DNA of 64,000 bases from Austwickia chelonae NBRC 105200. Its GTDB lineage: Bacteria > Actinomycetota > Actinomycetes > Actinomycetales > Dermatophilaceae. The notes below the pieces were generated by a model, which saw only the letters and a program-made list of their open reading frames with translations, was not told where the DNA came from and searched no databases. A program made the position numbers and the translations under genes. Below are positions 45,205 through 52,336 of this stretch, piece by piece; position 1 is the first letter of the stretch; each line of letters starts with the position of its first letter. The DNA lies in NCBI RefSeq assembly GCF_000298175.1, contig NZ_BAGZ01000005.1, positions 186,001 to 250,000 on the forward strand, given 5' to 3'.

Positions 45205-46431
45205 GTGTCCATTCCACGCCACGAGGTCGTCTTCGTCGACGGCGTCCGCACCCCCTTCGGTAAGGCAGGTGACAAAGGTCTGTACGCGCAGACACGCGCC
45301 GACGATCTCGTCGTCGCCTGTCTGCGGGAGATCATGCGTCGTCACCCGGAGGTTCCGGCCGAACGCATCGGCGATGTCGCCGTGGCCGCTACCACCCAGA
45401 CCGGTGACCAGGGGTTGACCATCGGCAGAACGGCTGCTCTGCTGGCCGGACTACCTCACACCGTCCCGGGATACGCCATCGATCGGATGTGCGCCGGAGC
45501 CTTGACCGCGGTGACCACTGTTTCGGCATCGATCTCCTACGGGGCCTACGACCTGGCGTTGGCCGGTGGCGTCGAACACATGGGCCACCACCCGATGGGA
45601 GCTGGCGTCGATCCGAATCCACGCTTCGTCTCGGAGAAGCTCGTCGATCCCGAGGCCCTCAACATGGGCAATACCGCCGAGAACCTGCACGATCGCTTCC
45701 CCCAACTGACCAAGGAACGTGCCGACCGTTACGCCATGGCGAGCCAACACAAGATGCAGGCCGCCTACGCCTCCGGTCAGATCCAACCCGACCTCGTCCC
45801 TGTCGCCATCAGACATGAGGAACTCGGGTGGGGGCTCGCCTCGAAGGACGAACCTCCCCGTCCCGGGGTCACCATGGAGGCTCTGGCCGAGCTGAAGACC
45901 CCTTTCCGTCCGCACGGCCGGGTCACTGCGGGGAATGCCGCCGGACTCAACGACGGCGCCACCGCCTGTCTCCTCGCATCGGAGAAAGCAGCCGCCGAAC
46001 TCGGACTACCGGTGAAGATGCGGCTGGTGTCCTTCGCCTTCGCCGGGGTCGAGCCCGAGATCATGGGATATGGACCGGTACCTGCAGCGGAGAAAGCGCT
46101 GGCCCAGGCCGGGCTGGGGATCGATGACATCGGCCTGTTCGAGATCAACGAGGCCTTCGCCGTCCAGGTCCTCAGCTTCCTCGACCATTACGGCATCGCC
46201 GACGACGACCCCAGGGTCAACAAGTACGGCGGAGCCATCGCCTGCGGGCACCCCCTGGCTTCTTCCGGGGTACGTCTGATGATCCAGCTGGCTCGCCAGT
46301 TCGCCGAGAATCCCCAGGTCCGTTACGGGATGACCACGATGTGTATCGGTATCGGAATGGGCGCTGCCGTCATCTGGGAGAACCCGCACCACAGCGATTA
46401 CATCGCCTACGACGAGGAGAACGCCCGATGA
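45205..46431 (+). CDS. fadA: Acetyl-CoA acyltransferase (beta-ketothiolase)
   Basis: A 408-aa thiolase for the last step of beta-oxidation. Nucleophilic Cys in IDRMCAGALTAV, the NEAFAVQ motif, acid/base His in CGHPLASSGVR, and the C-terminal Cys in TTMCIGIGMGA. The GTG at 45205 follows GGGAG. Its stop overlaps the fadB start (ATGA), so the two subunits of the fatty acid oxidation complex are translated together. Confidence 0.95.
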   Translation: MSIPRHEVVFVDGVRTPFGKAGDKGLYAQTRADDLVVACLREIMRRHPEVPAERIGDVAVAATTQTGDQGLTIGRTAALLAGLPHTVPGYAIDRMCAGALTAVTTVSASISYGAYDLALAGGVEHMGHHPMGAGVDPNPRFVSEKLVDPEALNMGNTAENLHDRFPQLTKERADRYAMASQHKMQAAYASGQIQPDLVPVAIRHEELGWGLASKDEPPRPGVTMEALAELKTPFRPHGRVTAGNAAGLNDGATACLLASEKAAAELGLPVKMRLVSFAFAGVEPEIMGYGPVPAAEKALAQAGLGIDDIGLFEINEAFAVQVLSFLDHYGIADDDPRVNKYGGAIACGHPLASSGVRLMIQLARQFAENPQVRYGMTTMCIGIGMGAAVIWENPHHSDYIAYDEENAR

Positions 46432-48542
46432 GCATCGACTTCACCGAGGTCTTCCCGGACGAGGTGGTCACCCGCGCCCTGGTCCGGGACATCGATCTCC
46501 CGGAGGGCGCCGGGACCATGGCCCTGGTGACCCTGGACAACGGCATGGACCACACTCGCCCGAATACGTTCGGGCCGCAGACCCTGACTCTGTTGGGTGA
46601 GGTCCTGGACGGGGTCGCAGCCCGGGCCGCTGCCGGTGAGATCGCTGCGGTCGGGATCACCGGGAAACCCTTCATCCTGGCCGCAGGTGCCGATCTGTCC
46701 GGAGTGGCCAAGGTCACACGCCGGGAGCAGGGTCGGGCGATCGCCGAGTTGGGCCACCGGACCTTCTCGAAACTCACCGATATGGGAGTTCCGACCTTCG
46801 CCTTCATGAATGGGTTGGCGTTGGGCGGAGGCGTCGAGGTCAACCTTTACTGCACCTACCGGACGATCTCTTCCGGGGTCCCTGCTCTCGCCCTGCCCGA
46901 GTGTTTCCTCGGCTTGCTCCCCGGCTGGGGTGGCACGTGGCTGCTGCCGAATCTGATCGGTATCGAACGTGCGCTCAAGGTGGTGATCGAGAACCCGTTG
47001 TCGATGAACAAGATGCTGAAAGGTCCGCAGGCCTTCGATCTCGGCATCGCCGACGCACTCTTCGAGCCCGCTGATTTCCTCGCGCAGTCGCTCGTCTGGG
47101 CCTCCCAGGTACTCACCGGGCAGGTCACGGTAGAGCGGGCACCAGTCCAGCGCGACGAATCGACTTGGGCCGCAGCGATCGACACGGCCAGATCTTTCGT
47201 GGACATGAAGACCGGTGGCCATTCTCCGGCTCCGTACCGGGCGCTGGAGCTGTTGGCCGCGTCCAGGACGAACACCCGTGAGGAGGGATTCGAAGCGGAG
47301 AACGAGGCGCTGGCCGATCTCATCATGAGCGATGAGCTCAGGGCCGGGCTCTACGCCTTCGACCTGGTCCAGAAGCGCGCGAAACGGCCTGCGGGAGCTC
47401 CCGATCGGACCCTGTCGCGGAAGGTCACCAAGGTAGGGGTCGTCGGAGCCGGCCTGATGGCGAGCCAGCTCGCGCTGCTCTTCGTGCGTCGGTTGAAGGT
47501 GCCTGTGGTGATCACCGATCTGGACGCCGAGCGCGTGGCCAAGGGCGTCGCCTACGTCCATGCAGAACTGGACAAGCTCGTCGTCAAGGGTCGTCTGAGC
47601 GCGGACAAGTGCAATCGTTTCAAGGCGTTGATCACCGGGTCCACCGAGAAGTCCGACTTCGCCGACGCGGAATTCGTCATCGAGGCAGTCTTCGAGGAGA
47701 TGGCGGTCAAGAAACAGGTGTGGCGGGAGGTCGAGGAGGTCGTCGGACCGGAGTGTGTCCTGGCGACGAACACGTCCTCGCTGTCGGTCACCGAGATGGC
47801 TGCTGACCTGGAGCATCCTGATCGGGTCGTCGGTTTCCACTTCTTCAACCCCGTGGCTGTGATGCCGTTGTTGGAGATCGTCGAAGGTGAGAAGACCGAC
47901 GAGGCGACCTTGGCGACGGCTTTCGCCACCGGCCGGGCCTTGGGCAAGACCACGATCCGGGTCAAGGACAGTCCCTCTTTCATCGTGAACCGTCTGCTGG
48001 GAAGATTCATGTCGGACATGGCCCGGATCGTCGATGCGGGAACTCCGATGGAGATCGCAGACCAGGGATTCTCCGGGGTGGCTCCGATGCCACCGTTCGT
48101 CCTGATGGGACTGGTGGGGCCGGCCATCGCTCTGCACAACAACGAGAGTCTGGCGAAGGCCTTCCCCGAGAGGTTCTACATATCGGAGAACCTCCGCCGC
48201 GTGGTGAAGGCCGGTAAGAGTAGTTATTACACCTTCGGCTCCTCGGGGATGATCGTGGATCCGGAGATCCTGGCTCTGTACGAGCTCCCGGCGGAACCGG
48301 TGGTGCTCACCGCCGAGGAAGTGCGGGAGAAGGTGTTGGCAGGACTGGCCGAAGAAGCCCGGCTCATGCTGGACGAAGGTGTGGTCGCCGCTCCGATGGA
48401 TATCGATCTGGGCATGATCACCGGCGCCGGGTTCCAGTTCTGGAACGGAGGGCTCACTCCTCTGCTGGATCGCACCGGGAAGGCCGAGCAGGTGACCGGT
48501 GCGCGGTTCCTCCCCCGCGGGGCAGCTGACGTCCCGGCCTGA
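46428..48542 (+). CDS. fadB: Multifunctional beta-oxidation protein: enoyl-CoA hydratase / 3-hydroxyacyl-CoA dehydrogenase
   Basis: 704 aa. The crotonase domain (about 1-300) keeps both catalytic glutamates (LALGGGVEVNLY, LALPECFLGLLPGWGGT) and the oxyanion region GKPFILAAGADLSG. The NAD-binding domain starts near residue 340 (KVGVVGAGLMASQLALLF), has ATNTSSLSVTEMA and VVGFHFFNPVAVMPLLEIV with catalytic His, and ends in two C-terminal dehydrogenase domains. It acts on trans-2-enoyl-CoA to 3-ketoacyl-CoA, feeding FadA. Cytoplasmic. Confidence 0.95.
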   Translation: MSIDFTEVFPDEVVTRALVRDIDLPEGAGTMALVTLDNGMDHTRPNTFGPQTLTLLGEVLDGVAARAAAGEIAAVGITGKPFILAAGADLSGVAKVTRREQGRAIAELGHRTFSKLTDMGVPTFAFMNGLALGGGVEVNLYCTYRTISSGVPALALPECFLGLLPGWGGTWLLPNLIGIERALKVVIENPLSMNKMLKGPQAFDLGIADALFEPADFLAQSLVWASQVLTGQVTVERAPVQRDESTWAAAIDTARSFVDMKTGGHSPAPYRALELLAASRTNTREEGFEAENEALADLIMSDELRAGLYAFDLVQKRAKRPAGAPDRTLSRKVTKVGVVGAGLMASQLALLFVRRLKVPVVITDLDAERVAKGVAYVHAELDKLVVKGRLSADKCNRFKALITGSTEKSDFADAEFVIEAVFEEMAVKKQVWREVEEVVGPECVLATNTSSLSVTEMAADLEHPDRVVGFHFFNPVAVMPLLEIVEGEKTDEATLATAFATGRALGKTTIRVKDSPSFIVNRLLGRFMSDMARIVDAGTPMEIADQGFSGVAPMPPFVLMGLVGPAIALHNNESLAKAFPERFYISENLRRVVKAGKSSYYTFGSSGMIVDPEILALYELPAEPVVLTAEEVREKVLAGLAEEARLMLDEGVVAAPMDIDLGMITGAGFQFWNGGLTPLLDRTGKAEQVTGARFLPRGAADVPA

Positions 48543-48601
48543 AAGCGCTCGTCAACCCCAGGATCGGTCAGCTGATTCCCAGCGTTCTGTCATATGTCTC
48601 A

Positions 48602-48637
48602 CGGTCGAGGCGCGCCCATCGGGGCGCGCCTCGACCG
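48602..48637 (+). terminator. Terminator after fadB
   Basis: Perfect 15-bp stem (48602-48616 with 48623-48637), loop CATCGG, 60 bp after the fadB stop. Confidence 0.85.
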
Positions 48638-48812
48638 CATGGGCCGCAAATTCGGGCAATCTTCTGTCTCAGTAGTTCTGAGGTCCGTGTCAACGAGAGC
48701 TCCGTCGATGTGAAAGACTTGGGCGATCGTCCTGACCCGTTCGTGGAACCTGCCACGAACGGCTCGCCGCCGCGCCTGGATACACCAGAAACACGCCGCG
48801 ACCGGCCCATAT

Positions 48813-48831
48813 CTCATATGTGAGCTATTCT
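48813..48831 (+). promoter_or_regulatory. Inverted repeat and -10 box of the XRE-MurA gene
   Basis: CTCATATGTGAG (48813-48824; CTCA/TGAG arms around TATG) sits directly upstream of TATTCT (48826-48831), which is six bases before the ATG at 48838. An operator in the spacer of a leaderless promoter would let the XRE domain repress its own gene (inference). Confidence 0.5.
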
Positions 48832-48837
48832 AGAAAC

Positions 48838-50367
48838 ATGAGTGAGGACTACTTGGCACGTATCGGAGGCCTCATCCGAGACGCCCGCCGCCACAAGGGA
48901 CTGACCCAGGCGGAACTGGCCGAAAACCTCGGCACGAGCCAGAGCGCTGTGGCCCGCATCGAGCAGGGCAAACAAAATCTGAGCCTGGAGATGCTGGCAC
49001 GCATCGGCGAGTCCCTCGATTCGGAATTCGTGTCGCTCGGCTCCTCCGGGCCCCAACATCTACGCATCAAGGGCGGCACCAAGCTGTCCGGCGCCATCGA
49101 CGTCAAAACCAGCAAGAACGCCGCCGTCGCGCTCCTGTGCGCCGCCCTGCTGAACCGGGGGCGGACCACCTTGCGCAGCATCGCGCGGATCGAAGAGGTC
49201 AACCGGATCATCGAGGTTCTCCAGAGCATCGGGGTCCGGACCAGATGGCTCCCCGGGACCAGCGACCTGGAGATCATCCCCCCCGAGCGGGTCGACCTCT
49301 CCTCAATGGACCTGGCCGCGGCCCGGCGCACCCGGACCATCATCATGTTCTTCGCGCCGCTCCTGCACGACTTCGACTCCTTCTCCCTACCGTTCTCAGG
49401 CGGCTGCGACCTGGGGTCCCGCACCATCGAACCGCACATGACCGCGCTGCGCAGCTTCGGCCTCATGGTGCAGGCCACCAACGGTTTCTACGAGGCGACC
49501 GTCGACCGCTCCGTCCGCCCGACCCGCGCCATCGTGCTCACCGAACGCGGTGACACAGTCACCGAGAACGCCCTGATGGCTGCAGCCCGTTACGAGGGTG
49601 AAACTGTCATCCGCAACGCCAGCCCGAACTACATGGTTCAGGACCTGTGCTTCTTCCTCCAGAAGCTCGGCGTCGACGTCGACGGTATCGGCACGACCAC
49701 CCTCCGAGTACGCGGACGCTCCCATATCGACGTCGACGTCGACTACGCGCCCAGCGAGGACCCCATCGAGGCGATGAGTCTGCTGGCCGCCGCCGTCGTG
49801 ACGGAATCACGGATCACCATCCGCCGGGTCCCGGTCGAATTCCTCGAGATCGAACTCGCCCTACTCACCGAGATGGGTATGAAGTACGAGCTCAGCGAGG
49901 AATACGCCTCGGCCAACGGGAAGACCCGCCTGGTCGACCTGACGACCGTGCCCGGCCCTCTCGTCGCTCCTATCGACAAGATCCACCCGATGCCTTTCCC
50001 CGGGCTCAACATCGACAATCTCCCCTTCTTCGCGCTCATCGGTGCTGTCGCCCAGGGACGCACCATGATCCACGACTGGGTGTACGAGAACCGGGCCATC
50101 TACCTGACCGAACTCACCAAAGTCGGCGTGAAGGTCCAACTCCTCGACCCCCACCGGGTCCTGATCGACGGCCCCACCCGTTGGCGAGCCGCAGAGGTCG
50201 TCTGCCCGCCTGCTCTGCGACCCGGTGTGGTCATCCTCATCGCCATGCTGGCCACCCCCGGAACTTCCGTTCTGCGTAATGTCTACGTGATCAACCGCGG
50301 ATACGAAGACCTCGCAGAACGCCTCAACGCGCTCGGCGCCAGCGTGACCACCTTCCGGGACATCTAA
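48838..50367 (+). CDS. XRE helix-turn-helix fused to a MurA-like enolpyruvyl transferase
   Basis: 509 aa. Residues 1-70 are an XRE/Cro domain (RIGGLIRDARRHKGLTQAELAENLGTSQSAVARIEQGKQNLS). Residues about 80-509 are an EPSP-synthase/MurA fold. MurA active-site features are kept: Lys-Asn in KTSKNAAVALLCAALL, Cys in SGGCDLGSRTIEPH (E. coli C115 position), Asp in LNIDNLPFFALIG, Arg in PPALRPGVVILIA and the YENR loop. So PEP transfer to UDP-GlcNAc may still occur. Fusions like this have been annotated in actinobacteria; I know of no established function. It could be a second MurA or a metabolite-sensing regulator. The ATG at 48838 fits a TATTCT box six bases before. Confidence 0.85.
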   Translation: MSEDYLARIGGLIRDARRHKGLTQAELAENLGTSQSAVARIEQGKQNLSLEMLARIGESLDSEFVSLGSSGPQHLRIKGGTKLSGAIDVKTSKNAAVALLCAALLNRGRTTLRSIARIEEVNRIIEVLQSIGVRTRWLPGTSDLEIIPPERVDLSSMDLAAARRTRTIIMFFAPLLHDFDSFSLPFSGGCDLGSRTIEPHMTALRSFGLMVQATNGFYEATVDRSVRPTRAIVLTERGDTVTENALMAAARYEGETVIRNASPNYMVQDLCFFLQKLGVDVDGIGTTTLRVRGRSHIDVDVDYAPSEDPIEAMSLLAAAVVTESRITIRRVPVEFLEIELALLTEMGMKYELSEEYASANGKTRLVDLTTVPGPLVAPIDKIHPMPFPGLNIDNLPFFALIGAVAQGRTMIHDWVYENRAIYLTELTKVGVKVQLLDPHRVLIDGPTRWRAAEVVCPPALRPGVVILIAMLATPGTSVLRNVYVINRGYEDLAERLNALGASVTTFRDI

Positions 50368-50378
50368 GGCACCTGAAA

Positions 50379-50439
50379 CATGAAGTGAGGCCTCCGGCAT
50401 TTCCCTGAAGAGGGGAAATGCCGGAGGCCTCACTTTATG
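50379..50439. terminator. Bidirectional terminator between XRE-murA and dxs
   Basis: A 26-bp arm (from 50379) pairs with its complement ending at 50439, one G-T pair, small loop. It lies between convergent genes. Confidence 0.9.
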
Positions 50440-50473
50440 TTCTCCCGGTTCGTCCGGAGATCGGCGCATCAGA

Positions 50474-52336
50474 TCAGTCAGGCAGCCTCTGCGCGATGGA
50501 CTCAGCGGTCAGGCCGATCTCCTCCAGGATCTGCCCGCGGCTCGCATGGTCGAGGAAACGCTTCGGCACGCCGAACTGCTTCACCGGGGCGGCCAGGCCC
50601 GCTTCGGAGCAGGCCAGGGCGACAGCGGCGCCGATCCCGCCTCCGACGAGGTTGTCCTCGATCACTACCACCCGTGCGGCCCCCCGAGCCACATCGATGA
50701 GCTCACCCGGGACCGGAAGACACCACCGTGGGTCGACCACCCTGACTCGACGACCACGTTCGCTCAACAACTCCGACACCTGCAGCGCGAGCGGAACGAA
50801 AGAACCCAGTCCGATCACGAGGTCGTCGACCTCGTCGTACTCGTCCGGCTCGGCCAGGATGTCCACGACACCGATACTGCGGATCTCGTCGATCGGCGCC
50901 GGCGGATTTCCCTTGGAGAAACGGATGACCGTAGGGGCGTCGTCGACCTCGACAGCGTCCTGAAGCGCCTGCGCCACCCTGATGCCATCCCGAGGAGCAG
51001 CCAGTGACAGTCCTGGCACGATATTCGCCAGGGTCATGTCCCACATCCCGTTGTGGGAGGCCCCGTCACTGCCGGTGATCCCGGCTCGGTCGAGAACGAA
51101 AGTCACCCCGGCCTGATGCAAAGCACAATCCATCAACATCTGATCAAAAGCACGGTTGAGGAATGTGGAATATACGGCCACTACCGGGTGCAAACCTCCG
51201 AAAGCCAAGCCGGCCGCCATGGTCACCGCATGTTGCTCCGCGATCCCAACGTCGAACACCCGGTCAGGAAAACGTTCGGCAAAACCCTTCAAACCAACCG
51301 GTATCAACATGGCCGCGGTCAAAGCGACCACATCGTCCCGCTCCTCGCCGATTTTCTCGATCGCCTCCGAGAAATCATCCGTCCAGGACCGGCCGGACAC
51401 CTCGAGAGGAAGACCCGTCTCCGGATTGATCACCCCCACCGCGTGGAAACGATCGTCATCGTGATTACAGGCGTGTTCGTAGCCATTCCCCTTACGGGTC
51501 ATCACATGCACGATGACCGGAGCGCCATAACCCTTCGCCTGTTTCAGCGCGACCTCGACGGCCTGGACATCATGTCCGTCCACCGGCCCGACATACTTCA
51601 GCCCAAGGTCCTCGAAGAGCCCCTGAGGGGCCACGATGTCCTTCAATCCCTTCTTCATCCCATGCAATGTCCCCAATGCGGGACGGCCCACCACCGGGGT
51701 CCGGGACAAGGTCTCCTTACCCCAACTCAGCAACTTCTCGTACTCGCGGGTCGTCCGCAGCCAAGCCAGGTGCTCAGCCAGCCCCCCGATCGTCGGGGCA
51801 TAACTACGAGTGTTGTCGTTCACCACGATCACCAGCGGCAGGTCTTTGACACTGGCGAGATTGTTCAAGGCCTCCCAGGCCATTCCACCGGTCAATGCCC
51901 CGTCACCGATCACCGCCACCGTATGCCGGTCGTACTCGCCTCGGATACGACGAGCCTGCGCGATACCGGTCGCCCAGGACAGCGACGTCGAAGCGTGACT
52001 GTTCTCCACCACGTCGTGTTCCGACTCGGCCCGCGACGGATAACCCGACAAGCCGCCCTTCGAACGGAGACGGGAGAAATCCTGGCGACCCGTCAACAAC
52101 TTGTGCACATAACTGATGTGCCCAGTGTCGAAAACAAGGGTGTCATGAGGACTGTCGAAGACTCTGTGCAGAACCATCGTGAGCTCCACGACCCCAAGAT
52201 TGGGACCGAGATGCCCGCCGGTGGCCGACACTGCCCGCACCAGGAACCCGCGGATCTCCTCCGCCAACTCCTCGAGTTGGTCGTGGTCGAGATTCCGCAG
52301 GTCCGCGGGGTTATTGATCTGATCCAGCAGGGACAC
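50474..52336 (-). CDS. dxs: 1-deoxy-D-xylulose-5-phosphate synthase
   Basis: 620 aa. Condenses pyruvate and glyceraldehyde 3-phosphate with thiamine diphosphate, the entry step of the MEP isoprenoid pathway. Motifs: [34 protein letters not shown] site [18 protein letters not shown] with [18 protein letters not shown], and in the second half [17 protein letters not shown] and [18 protein letters not shown]. The GTG at 52336 is the family start. Gene neighbours hemE, DUF3000 and rnd are also near dxs in mycobacteria (Rv2678c-Rv2682c). Confidence 0.96.

Follow-up and report, generated by a model that had tools for sequence, protein, structure and literature searches.

The DNA analysed is a 64,000-nt window of the Austwickia chelonae NBRC 105200 genome (GTDB lineage Bacteria; Actinomycetota; Actinomycetes; Actinomycetales; Dermatophilaceae) that corresponds to positions 186,001-250,000 of the forward strand of contig NZ_BAGZ01000005.1 (assembly GCF_000298175.1). 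The features of the locus are listed in Table 1. An earlier interpretation of this DNA from its letters alone (the sequence-only reading) had proposed a protein with an N-terminal XRE domain joined to a complete EPSP/MurA fold, and this was borne out by Pfam, in which both HTH_3 and EPSP_synthase (residues 78-496, E 3.7e-43) were matched. The longest ORF opens with a GTG at 48820, which lies inside the operator described below; the ATG at 48838 (MSEDY...) is the likely start and is favoured because the N-terminus MxDDYL is conserved among orthologues.

Table 1. Position of the features identified at the XRE-MurA locus (window coordinates)
Feature	Position	Strand	Remarks
Thiolase and fadB-like fatty-acid oxidation protein	45205-48542		Upstream flank
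Operator TATCTCATATGTGAGCTA	48810..48827	+	18-bp palindrome, consensus YATCTCATATNTGAGATA; conserved upstream of orthologues
Inverted repeat CTCATATGTGAG	48813-48824	+	Repeat of the sequence-only reading; core of the 18-bp operator
Putative -10 hexamer TATTCT (TAnnnT)	48826..48831	+	First two bases shared with the operator
XRE-MurA fusion gene	48838..50367	+	509 aa + stop; MurA2-type UDP-GlcNAc enolpyruvyl transferase with DNA-binding domain
XRE / HTH_3 domain, residues 13-61	48874..49020	+	Pfam HTH_3, E 3.4e-13
Recognition helix, residues 35-42 (QSAVARIE)	48940..48963	+	Helix 35-42 in the AlphaFold2 model
Flexible linker, residues 62-70	49021..49047	+	pLDDT below 50
MurA domain, residues 73-507	49054..50358	+	NF006873, 316.4 bits (cut-off 297); Foldseek E 1.4e-38
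Cys190	49405..49407	+	Equivalent to E. coli MurA Cys115; Cys in 99/101 fusions, the other two fragmentary
Residues 236-240 (ERGDT)	49543..49557	+	Align with the E. coli K160-G164 UDP-contact loop; invariantly changed in the fusion clade
Terminator-like hairpin	50386..50432	+	Strong, 20-bp stem; 3' of the fusion gene
dxs	50474-52336		Downstream, convergent with the fusion gene

The gene looks monocistronic. A cell-wall operon was ruled out, the neighbours being thiolase, fadB-like and dxs genes with the hairpin 3' of the gene, as was a structured leader RNA, there being no Rfam match within 48400-50600. The same neighbourhood was seen again at several Dermatophilaceae loci and not in Streptomyces, where acnA is found nearby.

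For the XRE part, the nearest NCBIfam model is TIGR03070 (Y4mF/HipB-like antitoxin family) with 54.4 bits, which is below the cut-off of 71.65 and indicates similarity only. The AlphaFold2 model of the whole protein as a monomer (pLDDT 87.6, pTM 0.80) retrieved solved MurA structures as all of its top Foldseek matches, followed by NikO and then by AroA. In the orthologue alignment, E42 of the recognition helix is invariant and Q35 and R40 are nearly so. The linker between the two domains is predicted to be flexible, so that a rigid allosteric coupling between them is not favoured.

Operator, putative promoter and their conservation

The sequence-only reading had placed the inverted repeat CTCATATGTGAG against the TATTCT hexamer and the latter six bases before the ATG. 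These positions are correct, with AGAAAC separating TATTCT from the start codon, but CTCATATGTGAG alone is an imperfect palindrome with arms CTCA/TGAG and the symmetric element is larger (TATCTCATATGTGAGCTA). Of the 14 half-site positions the window operator matches 13, and none of 2000 shuffled versions of the upstream stretch exceeded 11. In upstream regions of orthologues, the corresponding TATCTCA-N4-TGAGATA element stands directly before the start codon. When called at a half-site score of at least 11 of 14 positions (at least 12 when a 6-bp spacer was allowed), it occurs in 116 of the 120 orthologues with a recognition helix that matches a strict pattern and in two more with an intact helix that this pattern had missed, giving ca. 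118 of 122 HTH-intact orthologues from Streptomyces to Nocardioides, and in none of six in which the HTH has been lost or rewritten, the orthologues behind these counts not being phylogenetically independent. Conservation of the repeat upstream of orthologues, which the sequence-only reading had put forward as a check, was confirmed. Members of the Ornithinimicrobium/Serinicoccus type carry a version with a longer spacer (TATCTCATATATGTGATCTA), two loci (L204 and L205) score 10/14, and exceptions are represented by L013/L186 and L018, which keep the HTH with a degenerate operator. In the subgroup formed by L013, L015, L018 and L186, all with the HTH, it is mainly the right half-site (TGATCTA or TGACCTA) that survives. 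No operator pattern was found in viral contigs.

In all 86 orthologues analysed, the operator overlaps the putative -10 hexamer, its right half-site ending in the TA with which TAnnnT begins, and T occupies position 6 of the hexamer. The first ATG or GTG is found 6-7 nt past TAnnnT in 79 of these 86. This geometry fits a leaderless promoter, as had been proposed, with an operator covering the -10; a search for hexamer pairs of the sigma-70 type was negative.

Operator and HTH have also disappeared together. In four genomes of the Arsenicicoccus type, the recognition region has changed from TSQSAVARIEQGKQN to MTGTDIEQIEAGDHD or a similar sequence and the palindrome is missing, while a congener (G157) keeps both an intact recognition region and the operator. 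The HTH is lost and the operator absent in G164, and in G168 TQPSAV replaces TSQSAV and the operator is again absent. In a tree of the MurA domain these cases correspond to three independent HTH losses, each accompanied by loss of the operator, a number of pairs that cannot give significance alone. Eleven genomes of genus g2 have neither the fusion nor the operator. Separately, rewritten-helix genomes (L213, L214 and L215, that is G156, G083 and G158, and also G037) have another palindrome, TATCTCAACGTCGAGATA, elsewhere; in L213 it falls in the upstream part of an aquaporin-like ORF and, at the threshold used, it is missing from the congener G157.

Genome-wide, the pattern TATCTCANNNNTGAGNTA was searched with one mismatch allowed and gave a single match in the A. 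chelonae genome, at the fusion promoter. Matches occurred in 15 of 17 genomes drawn from the family, Streptomyces, Brachybacterium, Nocardioides and others, mostly one each and at the fusion promoter, as compared to one match over all 17 genomes for a reversed control pattern; within the family, 139 of 188 genomes have an operator match. Since the operator occurs once in the genome, at the gene's own promoter, the predicted regulon is essentially autoregulation. The sequence-only reading had suggested repression of the gene itself or of cell-wall genes: the former is retained, the operator being conserved and lost with the HTH, and control of other cell-wall genes was rejected, the site being essentially unique with no further conserved sites save one that is genus-specific. 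The latter is found in Knoellia-type genomes, where a second operator-like palindrome (TATCTCACACGTGAGTTA or similar; L165, L216, L217 and L218) lies upstream of sdhC, at a distance of ca. 50-70 bp, in the majority of genus g7 genomes; it may be a second target peculiar to this lineage or belong to a different XRE regulator.

A divergent MurA, alone in most of the family

The fusion scores 300 bits with TIGR01072, the strict murA equivalog model, and does not reach its cut-off of 392.7; the fusion clade as a whole ranges from ca. 300 to 328. By these scores it is classed as a divergent MurA-type enzyme and not as a TIGR01072 equivalog, it has the overall MurA fold and belongs to the MurA sequence family (Foldseek, NF006873), and in the tree it groups with MurA rather than with AroA. 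Its active site was compared by alignment with that of E. coli MurA, whose length and key residue numbering were checked, and with those of 101 fusions and 42 non-fused MurA of the order. In E. coli numbering, the fusion keeps the PEP-binding and catalytic residues K22, R91, C115 (Asp in some MurA), R120, D305, R331, R371 and R397 together with N23, H125 and D231. This kept group serves PEP binding or the chemistry, while K160-G164 contact UDP in MurA structures. In that second region the fusion has E for K160 (E236) and G-D-T for S162-V163-G164 (G238-D239-T240), and it also has I for T304 and P or A for the conserved D369, replacements that are exceptionless among fusions with letters at these positions. 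The Lys-Asn, Cys, Asp and Arg positions of the sequence-only reading were found as far as PEP and catalysis are concerned, but the replacement of the UDP-contact loop, T304 and D369 means that activity on UDP-GlcNAc is not assured.

The fusion shares with classical MurA (E. coli, Listeria and Corynebacterium type) the fold and K22, N23, R91, C115, R120, D305, R331, R371 and R397, but it is only ca. 28-30% identical to them, differs at K160, S162-G164, T304 and D369, forms a separate clade on a long stem and has an additional N-terminal XRE domain. NikO, a UMP enolpyruvyl transferase that uses UMP as acceptor, has the same MurA-type fold but matches less well than MurA by both sequence and fold, and is an antibiotic biosynthesis enzyme devoid of an XRE domain. 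Asp at the Cys115 position is known to confer fosfomycin resistance (PMC4062475), and the fusion, with Cys there, is expected to belong to the fosfomycin-sensitive type, a prediction made less sure by work in E. coli (PMC4790336). Among the 42 non-fused MurA of the order sample, 32 have Asp at this position, which predicts resistance.

From Streptomyces to Dermatophilaceae the two-domain protein retains 72-87% identity, and at least 566 relatives were confirmed in a genome scan. In the A. chelonae genome (33 contigs, 100% complete), an EPSP-family profile search detected two genes, a standard AroA (TIGR01356, 364.7 bits) and the fusion, with no second MurA homologue; the four genomes of the genus likewise have two EPSP-family genes each and no MurA beyond the fusion. 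Of 188 family genomes, 186 have a TIGR01072 match, above the cut-off in only 55, the fusions listed scoring ca. 300-328 bits and ordinary MurA more than 410. By this count about 130 of the 188 have only the fusion, and many of these are single-contig assemblies; murB is above its cut-off in 177 of the 188. Named genomes with the fusion as sole MurA include Piscicoccus, Mobilicoccus, Janibacter massiliensis, Nostocoides japonicum, Knoellia, Ornithinimicrobium tianjinense, Aeromicrobium massiliense, Arsenicicoccus bolidensis and three Nocardioides. Because the genus and most of the family have no other MurA though MurB is present, the fusion is presumably their essential housekeeping MurA as well as a regulator; its standing as the only MurA had been overlooked by the sequence-only reading. 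In genomes of Streptomyces, Kitasatospora, Brachybacterium, Terrabacter and Actinopolymorpha, the fusion occurs together with an ordinary MurA, and the latter is present in 376 of 396 genomes of a phylum-wide sample, so that sole-fusion status is lineage-specific.

In the tree, a long stem leads to a single clade of the fusions (SH-aLRT 99), distinct from two further clades of actinobacterial MurA; the branching order of these clades is unsure because long branches meet at the base. The non-fused MurA of the order (L089-L118 and L149-L158) fall into two deep clades with ca. 500 and ca. 430 bits to TIGR01072. Sole-fusion status was rejected for family f20, whose low scores are due to fragments of ordinary MurA (L124 and L125, in the canonical clade), and G037, G264, G262, G239, G214 and G273 were rejected as divergent enzymes, their low scores reflecting fragmented or frameshifted fusions.

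Probable autoregulation by an enzyme and its relation to Streptomyces MurA2

We favour, with a probability of about 0.8, a reading in which a dimer of this HipB-like XRE-MurA protein represses its own leaderless promoter through a single operator and is at the same time the sole MurA of the genus and most of the family. The fusion would be the MurA of a distinct actinobacterial clade, that of Streptomyces MurA2, equipped with an N-terminal HipB-like XRE domain; its dimer would bind the single 18-bp TATCTCA-N4-TGAGATA operator over the -10 of its own promoter and, once bound, would repress its own transcription, resulting in negative autoregulation by an enzyme. As the only MurA there, it would also have to make UDP-GlcNAc-enolpyruvate for peptidoglycan in the genus and most of the family. 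We infer DNA binding, dimerisation, repression (from the overlap with the -10) and catalysis by the fusion. Since the operator overlaps the -10 and vanishes together with the HTH, self-repression is the simplest reading, and binding as a dimer is suggested by analogy with HipB, an autorepressor that binds TATCCN8GGATA, a site with the same TATC-N10-GATA spacing (PMC3376134). Beyond this spacing and the TIGR03070 match, the fusion differs from HipB/Y4mF autorepressors in that its XRE domain is below the family cut-off, is joined to an enzyme and has no HipA partner in the immediate neighbourhood. It resembles the trigger enzymes PutA, BirA and NadR in that an enzyme domain is physically fused to a DNA-binding domain (Pfam, model), and comparative genomics (conservation and co-loss) ties a specific operator to the protein; as for PutA, there is essentially one target, its own promoter (PMC8249747). 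It differs from all three in its enzyme and pathway, the first committed step of peptidoglycan synthesis. More speculatively, what occupies the active site (UDP-GlcNAc, PEP, UDP-MurNAc or fosfomycin) could alter the affinity for DNA, as in a trigger enzyme; the sequence-only reading had suggested such sensing of the UDP-GlcNAc or PEP supply.

How such regulation would operate is a matter of two main alternatives. The XRE domain may simply adjust the amount of enzyme through negative feedback from its concentration, the MurA domain sensing no ligand, for which we see close to an even chance: a one-site regulon, an operator on the -10 and a flexible linker require no ligand, and autorepression of the HipB type is known (PMC3376134), but its physical linkage to an enzyme that binds substrates, kept across a broad range of taxa, resembles trigger enzymes such as PutA (PMC8249747). 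Alternatively, and as a substantial possibility that stays short of even odds, occupancy of the MurA site by substrate or product would change operator binding and tie enzyme synthesis to the demand for peptidoglycan. The retention of the catalytic Cys/Lys/Arg set by a DNA-binding protein, an invariantly remodelled nucleotide loop and the precedent of PutA, whose binding is confined to its own promoter region (PMC8249747), are consistent with such gating; the predicted flexibility of the linker argues against it, as do the four Arsenicicoccus-type genomes, G164 and G168, which apparently manage without operator or intact HTH.

Two further explanations depart from the favoured reading. The MurA domain might use another nucleotide sugar and double as a regulator, peptidoglycan MurA activity coming from elsewhere, as could be suspected from the invariantly changed UDP-contact residues, from NikO being a detectable structural relative and from the ordinary MurA of Streptomyces; this is improbable given that ca. 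130 of the 188 family genomes have no other MurA though MurB is present, and that the sole other EPSP-family gene in the A. chelonae genome is a standard AroA. It also appears very unlikely that the palindrome is a promoter element or the site of another regulator, with the XRE domain binding elsewhere or not at all. Other factors do act on the Streptomyces murA2 promoter, namely BldM-WhiI (PMC4125116) and SigB (PMC8346170), and a DmdR1 site is predicted there (PMC12161575), but the BldM-WhiI motif is described as non-palindromic (PMC4125116), the operator is missing from relatives with no HTH or with a rewritten recognition helix and persists in the congener with an intact helix, and the g2 genomes without the fusion are also without the site.

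If the favoured reading is true, an essential cell-wall enzyme would be added to the few enzymes that control their own genes: a vital antibiotic target would seemingly control its own production, in most relatives of A. chelonae as the only MurA-family enzyme. This sole MurA of many genera is of the Cys type, in contrast to the mostly Asp type of other sampled actinobacterial MurA, and direct tests of cell-wall homeostasis and of the response to fosfomycin become possible, with an exact operator and natural relatives devoid of HTH and operator as ready-made controls.

Judged by synteny with acnA, the Streptomyces orthologue of the fusion is MurA2 (SCO5998; sven5810): a divergent acnA adjoins the fusion in 27 Streptomyces-type loci, and SCO5998 adjoins SCO5999 (acnA) (PMC12161575). 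A SigB-dependent promoter of SCO5998 (PMC8346170) and binding of BldM-WhiI at murA2 (PMC4125116) have been described; the published SigB promoter string had no match in the Streptomyces loci examined, and acnA synteny was used for orthology. The fusion gene itself is not new, since it corresponds to Streptomyces MurA2 and fusions are present in public genomes. The XRE domain, the operator and autoregulation are not mentioned in these papers on MurA2 (PMC12161575, PMC8346170, PMC4125116), and no MurA-fused regulator was encountered in the literature searched, a search with most subscription journals outside its scope; the operator, single-site autoregulation and the sole-MurA distribution appear to be unreported in that literature. 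Streptomyces loci have the same fusion and the same operator, the difference being that an ordinary MurA is also present.
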